DNA from: Gemmatimonadales bacterium
Lineage (GTDB): Bacteria; Gemmatimonadota; Gemmatimonadetes; Gemmatimonadales; GWC2-71-9
Direction: 5' to 3'
DNA length: 44,545 bases
Assembly (NCBI GenBank): GCA_013813435.1
Contig: JACCRS010000081.1
Span: 1 to 44,545 of the forward strand
Part shown: in pieces, positions 9,749-43,964 of the stretch
How positions within the stretch are numbered: position 1 is the first letter of the stretch
Layout of the letters: every line of letters starts with the position of its first letter
Notes under the pieces: model-generated
Databases searched by the model: none
What the model was told of the DNA's origin: nothing
What the model saw: the letters and a program-made list of their open reading frames with translations, nothing else
Program-made: the position numbers and the translations under genes

Positions 9749-9864
9749 GCGGGTCAGCGGGTCCGCGGGTCAGGATAAGGAAATTGTCACCCTAAGCGCA
9801 GCGAAGGGGCAAAGTCTCACTCCGGCTTCGCCACTCAAACCGTCGCCTGTCCCGCTGTCCCGCT
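9749..9864. repeat. Inverted octamer-array element #1 between permease B1 and A2
   Basis: Left array GCGGGTCA-GCGGGTCC-GCGGGTCA-GG (9749-9774). Right array CCTGTCCCGCTGTCCCGCT (9846-9864), reverse complement AGCGGGACAGCGGGACAGG; 16/19 match to the left arm. The 71-nt spacer holds GTCACCCTAAGCGCAGCGAAGG. Confidence 0.75.
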
Positions 9865-19648: not shown

Positions 19649-19699
19649 GGCTATTGGCTATTGTCGAAGAACGGCATCGGGGCGGCATAGCCAATAGCC
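19649..19699. repeat. Inverted heptamer-array element #3 between pgsA and cinA
   Basis: GGCTATTGGCTAT (19649-19661) and its perfect 13-bp inverse ATAGCCAATAGCC (19687-19699), 25-nt spacer; the heptamer GGCTATT is tandemly repeated. Confidence 0.8.
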
Positions 19700-22727: not shown

Positions 22728-22781
22728 TTGAGGCCAAAGTAGGAAGAATGTCAGAGGACTGCAACGATCTGCAGTCTAAGA

Positions 22782-22844
22782 GTCCAGGGTCTAGAGTCTA
22801 GGGTCTGGCGTCCGGTATTCGACCCTGGACCCTCGACTCTGGAC
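22782..22844. repeat. Inverted heptamer-array element #4 between ybaB and dnaX
   Basis: Left GTCCAGGGTCTAGAGTCTAGGGTC (22782-22805), right GACCCTGGACCCTCGACTCTGGAC (22821-22844). 20/24 positions match in inverse orientation; each arm has a ~7-bp period (GGTCTAG-AGTCTAG-GGTCTGG). Confidence 0.75.
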
Positions 22845-22850
22845 CTTCTT

Positions 22851-24509
22851 TCAATCCATTATCTCCAAATCTAACGCATCCGCCGCCGTGTCGAGGGCCG
22901 GATCCTTCGAGCGGAACTCGCGTAACCGCTCGGCCTTGAGACTGGATTCGGACATGCGCCGGGCCTTGGTACCGATCGCGACTCCAGAAGACTCTCCGGC
23001 GGCCACTCGAAGCCGCATCGCCTCACCCAAGCTTCGGCTCAGGACCTCCTCAACCTTACTCGCCTCCTGGTGGAGCCGGTCGGCGAATAGGGCATTCGGC
23101 TCGGCCATGAGCACCGTCAGCCGGGAGCCGTCGAGTGAGGCCGGTTGGGTGGCCGCCAGAGCCTCTCCCAAAAAGCGGCTTTGAGCCCTCGTAGCGGCAA
23201 TGACGGCAGGCCAGGCAGCGCGGATGGCTTCGAGGGAAGCGGGGCCGCGGGGCAGCGGGGCAGCGGGGCTGCTGCTCGGCAAAGCAGCGACCCCTGGCGC
23301 TGAACGCTCCGTCGGCGTCAAAGCCGGTACCGGGTCGATCGCTCTCTCGGCCGTGCTCCTGCTGCCCCGCTGCCCCGCTGCCCCGCCGCCCGCGAGCACC
23401 TGCTCCAGATCGACAATGCGATCGAGCATCGCCCAGCGAAGCAACAGGGTTTCCACCGCCAGGCGAGGATTCACGCTCCTGCGGATGCCCATCTCGTTCT
23501 CGGCCAGGAGCCGAAGCATGCGGAGCACGTCGCCGGGTACCAGGCGGCCCTGGTAGCTCTCGAGCGTGGTACGCAGCGCCTCGGTCATTCCTTCCGGACG
23601 GGCGCCGACCTGAAGCATGAGAAGCCCCCTCAACGCCTCAGCGGTTCCGGCCATGAATTCCGCGAGGTCCACTCCTGCTTCCATGAGCCTATCAACCAGA
23701 GCAAAGACCGCCTCGGGACGCCGCTCGATCACCAGCCGAAGCACCTCCGAATAAAGCTCGTCGTCCACCAGACCGAGCACCTCACGCACCCGTTCTGCTG
23801 TGACGGCGCCCTCTCCAAAGCTTAGGCACTGGTCCAACACCGACAGCGCGTCCCGCATACCGCCATCCGCGTGGCGGGCAATGAGAGTCAGAGCATCGTC
23901 GTCGGCCGCGATTCCTTCGGCGGCGAGAACCTGCCGCAGCCGCTCACTTATAGCCGTTGGTCCAATTCTCCGAAAGTCAAACCGCTGCAGCCGCGACATG
24001 ACCGGAGCCGCGGCCGCCGCAATTTTCTGGGGCTCGGTGGTGGCAAATACGAATACCACGCCGGGGGGCGGCTCTTCGAGGATCTTGAGCAGGGCGTTCC
24101 ACGCCTCGCGGGTGAGCATGTGAGCTTCGTCGACGATGTAGACCTTGTGATGCCCCTCCTGCGACGCCGCGTACATGGCTCGCTCGCGCAGCTCCCGTGC
24201 GTCCTCTACTCCGCGATTGCTGGCGGCATCGATCTCGACGACGTCGATATTGGCCGAGCCGTTCCAGACCCGCACACAGTTCTCGCACTCCCCACACGGT
24301 TCGCCCGACGACTCACGACTCGGGCAGTTGAGCGCCATAGCAAGGATCCGTGCGGCCGTGGTCTTTCCGACCCCGCGCGGTCCGGTAAGGAGATACCCAT
24401 GGCCCACTCGCCCTCTGGCAACGGCGCCGCGCAGCACGGCCACGACATGGTCCTGGACCAGGAGATCGGTGAAGCGTTTGGGGCGGTATCGGCGGGCGAG
24501 AGCGATCAT
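22851..24509 (-). CDS. dnaX: DNA polymerase III subunit gamma/tau
   Basis: MIALARRYRPKRFTDLLVQDHVVAVLRGAVARGRVGHGYLLTGPRGVGKTTAARILAMALNC; zinc-module cysteines; DEAHMLTREAWNALLKILEEPP. Confidence 0.96.
   Translation of the reverse strand: MIALARRYRPKRFTDLLVQDHVVAVLRGAVARGRVGHGYLLTGPRGVGKTTAARILAMALNCPSRESSGEPCGECENCVRVWNGSANIDVVEIDAASNRGVEDARELRERAMYAASQEGHHKVYIVDEAHMLTREAWNALLKILEEPPPGVVFVFATTEPQKIAAAAAPVMSRLQRFDFRRIGPTAISERLRQVLAAEGIAADDDALTLIARHADGGMRDALSVLDQCLSFGEGAVTAERVREVLGLVDDELYSEVLRLVIERRPEAVFALVDRLMEAGVDLAEFMAGTAEALRGLLMLQVGARPEGMTEALRTTLESYQGRLVPGDVLRMLRLLAENEMGIRRSVNPRLAVETLLLRWAMLDRIVDLEQVLAGGGAAGQRGSRSTAERAIDPVPALTPTERSAPGVAALPSSSPAAPLPRGPASLEAIRAAWPAVIAATRAQSRFLGEALAATQPASLDGSRLTVLMAEPNALFADRLHQEASKVEEVLSRSLGEAMRLRVAAGESSGVAIGTKARRMSESSLKAERLREFRSKDPALDTAADALDLEIMD
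23239..23386. repeat. Inverted octamer-array element #5 inside dnaX
   Basis: GCGGGGCC-GCGGGGCA-GCGGGGCA-GCGGGGCT (23239-23270) facing TGCCCCGC x3 (23363-23386), the exact inverse of GCGGGGCA, across a 92-nt spacer. Confidence 0.85.
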
Positions 24510-24618: not shown

Positions 24619-24720
24619 GTGCCTCAGGCACCCCGAAGCGACACCGGGCATCGCTTAGCGCTGCTACCGGCGAGGTCCTGACGCGGTTCACGCGCCGGCG
24701 CCCTTCGGACCTGAGGCATC
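24619..24720 (-). ncRNA. ffs: Bacterial small signal recognition particle RNA (4.5S-type)
   Basis: Minus strand GATGCCTCAGGTCCGAAGGGCGCCGGCGCGTGAACCGCGTCAGGACCTCGCCGGTAGCAGCGCTAAGCGATGCCCGGTGTCGCTTCGGGGTGCCTGAGGCAC. It has the GUCAGG...GGUAGCAGCGCUAAGCG domain IV signature, closing stems GCCTCAGG/CCTGAGGC and CCGAAG/CTTCGG, a T-rich tract after the 3' end, and lies upstream of dnaX. Ends approximate. Confidence 0.87.
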
Positions 24721-43619: not shown

Positions 43620-43871
43620 ATGCGATTTCCCATCTGCCTTTCCGTAGCACTACTGGTCGCTTGCGGCGCATCCGATCGGAAGCGACAGGTTGCCGAGTGC
43701 GTGGACATTTATCGAACCGCCTACGTGACTGGCGGGGTCCGTGAGTGCCTGGTCAAGCGCCACGGCTGGTCTGCTGAGGCCGCCGCCGACGCCCAGCGCG
43801 ATCTGGAGAGCCACCCGGACAGCGCGGCGTTGGGCGACAGTGGACAGGTGGGCGACAGCCTGCGGAGATAG
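43620..43871 (+). CDS. Small hypothetical lipoprotein
   Basis: 83 aa with MRFPICLSVALLVACGASDRKR lipobox-like leader. Confidence 0.55.
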   Translation: MRFPICLSVALLVACGASDRKRQVAECVDIYRTAYVTGGVRECLVKRHGWSAEAAADAQRDLESHPDSAALGDSGQVGDSLRR

Positions 43872-43876
43872 TTCGA

Positions 43877-43964
43877 GTCATTGCGAGGGCGCTCAGCGCC
43901 CGAAGCAATCCAGCTGTCGGAACAACTGGATCGCCACGCGGGCCTAGGGCCCGCTCGCGATGAC
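43877..43964. repeat. REP/MITE-like nested palindrome
   Basis: GTCATTGCGAG...CTCGCGATGAC outer arms; CGAAGCAATCCAG...CTGGATCGCCACG inner arms; each arm has its own hairpin: GGGCGC-TCA-GCGCCC (43887-43901) and GCGGGCC-TAG-GGCCCGC (43938-43954). Confidence 0.75.

Follow-up and report, generated by a model that had tools for sequence, protein, structure and literature searches.

What kind of sequence is an inverted pair of short G-rich repeat arrays that lies in frame within dnaX, and does it act in the dnaX message or is it tolerated in the protein that it encodes? We approached this question in a window of 44,545 nucleotides, which is the whole stretch of DNA analysed, as well as in its source genome (G000, a MAG of 2.86 Mb from an uncultured Gemmatimonadales bacterium) and in related genomes.

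The repeat arrays in the dnaX reading frame

The gene and the parts of the element within it are located as follows.

22851–24509, minus strand: dnaX (DNA polymerase III gamma/tau), intact, 552 aa
23234–23272, plus strand: left arm (plus strand G-rich), made of four GCGGGGCN octamers in register
23273–23360, no strand: core between the arms, single copy genome-wide
23361–23391, minus strand: right arm (plus strand C-rich), with three inverse octamers together with variants

On the plus strand, GCGGGGC starts at 23239, 23247, 23255 and 23263, with C, A, A and T as the respective eighth bases. The minus-strand heptamers of the right arm are at 23364, 23372 and 23380. These positions agree with the four octamers and three inverse octamers reported by the first-pass annotation, and the spacing between the arms is about 93–94 nt. 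The arms form an inverted repeat of 31 nt (23242–23272 and 23361–23391) with 94% complementarity, or of 23230–23267 and 23358–23395 with looser boundaries. The repeat period is exactly 8 nt and is out of codon phase. The single heptamer GCGGGGC is not enriched in the window, where 26 copies were observed and 27.35 expected; seven of these 26 are in register inside 148 nt of dnaX. By sequence, the left arm has four GGGG tracts with 4-nt spacers, a putative G-quadruplex pattern. When the 94-nt core at 23270–23363 was compared with the whole genome, it matched only itself, and the next match was 20 nt long with an E value of 0.43.

The element spans codons 373–426 and the reading frame is open throughout, as the first-pass annotation had also noted. 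The Pfam domains found in DnaX are DNA_pol3_delta2, DNAX_ATPase_lid, DNA_pol3_gamma3, which extends to residue 369, and DnaX_C, which begins at residue 421. The AlphaFold2 model has pLDDT values below 50 at residues 374–417. The element falls exactly in the disordered linker that joins domain III to the C-terminal domain of tau. Because of these domain limits and the low pLDDT values, it appears to replace or constitute the disordered gamma-tau linker.

A dispersed and variable family in the source genome

A search of the source genome with GCGGGGCAGCGGGGCAG, allowing at most two mismatches, returned 188 matches, compared with 7 for a reversed-pattern control. The octamer arrays occur on both strands and also between genes. 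In a 582-kb sample of this genome, which was picked partly for octamer hits, a de novo scan for periodic inverted repeats found 30 in the real sequence and 0 in first-order Markov copies. Tandem Repeats Finder detected 121 strand-biased arrays with a period of 7 or 8 and many units in the sampled DNA. The units include GCGGGGCA, GGGTCTA, GGGAGTC, GCGGTGA, GGCGGTAC, GGAAGGGA and others, and several families with different G-rich 7- or 8-nt units coexist in the genome.

The neighbouring array pairs in the sampled DNA were convergent in 23 of 23 cases, with the G-rich arm 5' and the C-rich arm 3'. When 17 sampled genomes were considered, 39 of the 43 pairs with a period of 7 or 8 were convergent, and there were no pairs at a period of 5–6 and five at a period of 9–12. 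Many arrays had no detected partner inside 170 nt. The arms of one element mostly have a common unit; an element in a radical-SAM gene mixes units, its left arm being built of GCGGGGCA and its right arm of GGGAAGGA. All ten cores tested against the whole genome matched themselves only, and the cores that are not unique are those holding another palindromic repeat. The dispersed entity is the array and its geometry rather than a fixed element. The window itself has further convergent pairs, which are listed here with the RNA gene next to one of them; the first-pass annotation had overlooked the two that adjoin dnaX.

9749–9864, no strand: convergent octamer pair GCGGGTC / GCGGGACA, enclosing a degenerate GTCACCCT-type palindrome
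19649–19699, no strand: short convergent heptamer pair GGCTATT / AATAGCC
22781–22845, no strand: convergent heptamer pair of the GGGTCTA/GAGTCTA type, shortly after the stop codon of dnaX; this type of unit recurs in further pairs of the genome
24513–24611, no strand: another convergent octamer pair, more degenerate than the first, lying between the small SRP RNA and the start of dnaX
24619–24716, minus strand: bacterial small SRP RNA directly upstream of dnaX; the Rfam match (RF00169, E value 2.6e-7) exceeds the gathering score

Whole convergent pairs were found in frame in other conserved proteins of the source genome, at disordered linkers or in loops. They lie between the ligase and polymerase domains of LigD, within the PHP region of a DnaE2-like polymerase, between domains of an Fe-S/CCG-domain protein and directly past the kinase domain of a kinase, and a radical-SAM protein holds two of them. 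Two Lhr-type helicases, and likewise two lipoyl E2 linkers, have single arrays in frame. Pfam domains adjoin or flank the in-frame elements in LigD and in the DnaE2-like, radical-SAM, Fe-S/CCG, kinase and lipoyl E2 proteins. LigD-like ligase, polymerase and phosphoesterase paralogues are numerous in the genus, with 12 matches in the source genome (L088 on contig C149, for example), and Ku adjoins one of its LigD genes.

The end of contig C151 and the start of C209 represent one radical-SAM locus, with identical flanks of 23 and 54 nt around an element that is strongly diverged between the two and carries an 18-nt in-frame indel. This locus is polymorphic inside the element while its flanks are identical. 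Contigs C63 and C19 overlap with 2 differences, both within arrays; this was the sole variant overlap when six contig ends in or near arrays were compared. Both cases may represent strain alleles, and C151 and C209 could also be paralogues. Octamer arrays, or strain variation within them, seem to break the assembly of this genome. Many of its contigs end in or beside octamer arrays (C19, C54, C56, C63, C66, C75, C110, C135 and C147).

Units and linkers across Gemmatimonadota

The family is genome-wide and lineage-specific. Counts for GCGGGGCA arrays were 188 in the source genome, 294 in G009, 71 in G016 and 49 in G006, while most of the 61 relatives were at control level. A different unit, GTCGGACG, is expanded in G019 (302 versus 3 in the control), G027 (144), G002 (138) and G035 (79). 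G027 also has 82 matches to GGGGACT arrays against 9 in the control, and the related GGGGACG has 49 against 9 in G035. G052, an order-level relative in another family, has 377 GGGGACT matches with 1 in the control, and this is a large independent expansion.

Among named records, the dnaX genes nearest to that of the window come from Gemmatimonadales MAGs. We surveyed 96 distinct dnaX genes of Gemmatimonadota, 87 of which have usable linkers. A convergent pair is present in the linker of 13 of these 87, compared with 0/96 in a conserved dnaX stretch that was screened equally. No array of any kind was found in 69 of the 87 linkers, including those of most of the genus. On a dnaX tree built without the linker, at least six changes are required to explain the convergent-pair label, which occurs in two distant clades. 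The units in the linkers of other species include GGGGAC[T/A], GGGGAA[A/G], GCGGGAT, GTCGGACG and GGACGGCC, and two close sister species (L047 and L196) have dnaX linkers with different units in both arms. For analysis of arm matching, complementarity played no part in calling the arms. The eight two-armed linkers called in this way were all G-first, and a gene's own arms matched better than shuffled ones, with only 1 in 20,000 permutations as good. In the species tested, the unit of the dnaX linker is the one expanded genome-wide, namely GCGGGGCA in the source genome, GTCGGACG in G019 and GGGGACT in G027; the unit in G035 agrees broadly with its expanded unit.

Alignment with relatives gave different answers in different genes as to whether the repeat block is present or absent as a unit. 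The radical-SAM gene gives a clean pattern and the DnaE2-like gene an almost clean one; in both, the site has tens of residues in the source genome and a few in most relatives. In dnaX, however, the pattern is not clean because the linkers of all relatives, which are of low complexity, vary in length. Since the DnaX linker of the source genome is no longer than those of its relatives, insertion and local rewriting of the linker are inseparable at this gene. Convergent pairs were present at 4 of 18 LigD loci, the source genome included. Elements with other units occupy the radical-SAM site in G006 and G010 and the DnaE2-like site in G008. Since related species use different repeat words at corresponding sites of these proteins, fast-changing repeats repeatedly write new linkers.

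Origin and relation to known repeats

From the dispersal of the arrays, their convergence, the unique cores, the in-frame sites and the polymorphic locus, we infer a hypervariable, dispersed, foldback-like repeat that is tolerated in frame. The feature in dnaX is probably one copy of this fast-evolving repeat, with convergent G-rich 8-mer arrays around a unique core, that would have spread by copying and is carried as a tolerated passenger. Tolerance in a protein linker, one of two suggestions made when the sequence was first annotated, is well supported by the dispersed family, the disordered site and the other-unit arrays found there in other species.

The orientation of the arms, the unique cores, the one mixed-unit element (that of the radical-SAM gene) and the fact that the genome has Ku and LigD are consistent with copying at break ends or forks. 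Ku and LigD are present in many bacteria. Copies would spread during error-prone synthesis of DNA at stalled forks or breaks, with existing arrays as templates. Before rejoining, G-rich repeats that are prone to slippage would be added to each 3' end, and the product would be a G-rich arm, a filler and a C-rich arm. The two arms of the hairpin could then be kept alike, and change fast, through slippage and template switching between them. Within genes, only stop-free copies that keep the frame in flexible linkers would survive, which would make the dnaX copy a tolerated passenger turned linker and not a regulatory element. Much more tentatively, an undescribed process might write convergent G-rich repeats of 7–8 nt on both sides of a break, like a capping of 3' ends before rejoining, with a lineage-specific vocabulary of units, and might repeatedly rewrite the linkers of dnaX, LigD, radical-SAM and DnaE2 proteins in frame.

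A classical MITE or foldback transposon, that is, a discrete element, moved by a transposase, whose terminal inverted repeats are tandemly repetitive and whose copies insert in frame, would account for the inverted termini, the dispersal and the whole blocks absent from relatives. The source genome has a Y1 transposase (Y1_Tnp), and eukaryotic foldback transposons with tandemly repetitive arms are described in the reports on Tetris (PMC4079207) and Galileo (PMC3573991). We nevertheless consider such an element unlikely here. Cores are not common to copies even where the arms are nearly perfect, units differ among loci of one genome and at times between arms, and no constant ends were seen; movement by copy and paste is disfavoured because the cores are unique. 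The Y1 family was found in G000 and G006, whereas G009, the genome richest in octamer arrays (81% complete), gave no match; a RAYT/Y1 transposase link was dropped since Y1 presence does not follow the arrays consistently. The unique cores, together with arms that are alike within a locus, the near-universal period of 7–8 nt and the strong local hypervariability, fit with a purely local origin, in which slippage and hairpin-templated correction act on chance quasi-palindromes with no transfer between loci, the likeness of units reflecting composition and polymerase bias. Yet one exact unit is present at scores of loci in a genome while its count in congeners is close to that of the control, and dnaX linkers carry the unit expanded in their own species, and we regard this origin as quite improbable. 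Two other sources were considered and set aside: for a core captured from elsewhere there is no donor in the assembled source genome, and for writing by a reverse transcriptase (telomerase-like, retron or DGR), PF00078 was not found in G000 or G009.

The second suggestion of the first-pass annotation was an RNA structure within the dnaX message. The mRNA of the element is predicted to fold very stably (-124.8 kcal/mol, z = -7.1), and such a structure is physically possible, whereas a function of the structure is without support. A functional RNA, or a G-quadruplex or hairpin, could set the tau/gamma ratio or cause pausing at the domain III/tau boundary. The location of the element exactly between DNA_pol3_gamma3 and DnaX_C would favour such a role, as would the stop codon met 71 nt into the element in one shifted frame and the recurrence of paired arrays with arms matching within species at the dnaX linker in two distant clades. 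The other shifted frame, however, is open for more than 300 nt, and no X XXY YYZ slippery heptamer is present from 40 nt upstream through the element. A regulatory role is not supported on these two grounds and because most dnaX orthologues are without the structure; similar elements also occur in LigD, DnaE2-like and radical-SAM genes and in intergenic DNA. An Rfam search over 23227–23397 gave sub-threshold matches to miRNA models only and no family at gathering score. A programmed frameshift in dnaX is rejected, as there is no slippery site and the stem-loop is not kept, and a functional RNA of any of these kinds is very unlikely. Tolerance in a flexible linker is supported and a tau/gamma role is not. 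As for ordinary Ala/Pro/Gly/Ser codon usage in the linker of a GC-rich genome, the low complexity of the linker in every relative is what it would predict; it can hardly produce an exact 8-nt period out of codon phase with an inverted second arm, or the dispersal over both strands and intergenic DNA. It is rejected by the genome-wide family, the Markov controls and the conserved-dnaX control, and we give it practically no chance.

Cyanobacterial STRR sequences are dispersed tandem arrays of heptamers. The TAACTGA repeats of Beggiatoaceae are likewise dispersed bacterial tandem arrays, but they almost always occur as lone direct arrays between genes (169 direct sets and one inverted) and are not G-rich (PMC4679880). 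The closest geometry is that of Xanthomonas GGGAATC arrays, which occur as 70–75 convergent inverted pairs per genome, described as always having one array per strand, form G-quadruplexes in vitro, and were left open as to origin and function in 2015 (Rehm et al. 2015, PMC4692102). GGGAATC and GGGGA(C/T)T of Xanthomonas and Nostoc are dispersed G-rich 7-nt arrays, often of four units, with lengths that vary between close relatives (PMC4692102). The G-rich units of our source genome are similarly tandem and genome-dispersed, and their neighbours are convergent with one per strand. In contrast, the dnaX unit is the octamer GCGGGGCN and not a GGGNATC or GGGGANT heptamer, and other units of the genome differ as well. 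Also unlike the Xanthomonas and Nostoc arrays, many octamer and heptamer units exist in one genome, the unit at one site turns over between species, and complete pairs recur in frame within conserved proteins. Rickettsia palindromic elements (RPE), of about 150 bp, are in frame in unrelated conserved genes at presumably tolerated surface positions (Ogata et al. 2000, 2002, reviewed in PMC10969869). They share with the present repeats the in-frame position inside conserved protein genes (dnaX, LigD, DnaE2-like, radical SAM and others); RPE, however, form recognisable sequence families, while here the core and the peptide are unconserved and only the array unit and the geometry are kept. The Drosophila elements Foldback/Galileo and Tetris (PMC3573991, PMC4079207) have a variable middle part flanked by inverted arms that consist of short tandem repeats. 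Their terminal inverted repeats of short tandem units resemble ours, but these are eukaryotic DNA transposons, and the present repeats have unique cores, no linked transposase and no sequence common to copies. The element of the source genome has Xanthomonas-type geometry and RPE-type coding tolerance, and it lacks both the sequence conservation of RPE and the Xanthomonas unit. Our literature searches on Gemmatimonadota repeats found no description of it.

With many units, species-level turnover, co-changing arms, strain-level alleles and recurrent sites in conserved genes, this clade is a natural experiment that makes the origin of convergent G-rich arrays testable. It shows a route from dispersing DNA repeats to new disordered protein linkers. 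It also carries two warnings: where the linkers of DnaX, LigD or lipoyl-E2 orthologues differ in this clade, the difference may be repeat DNA instead of adaptation, and arrays of this kind may interrupt the assembly of MAGs.

A palindromic repeat of another type, GTCATTGCGAGG..., is present in the window at 43870–43960. Related palindromes of the GTCA(T/C)CC(T/C)GAG type form cores between octamer arrays on contigs C101 and C140 and, as judged by the encoded peptides, are also in loops of LigD in G003 and of the DnaE2-like protein in G001.
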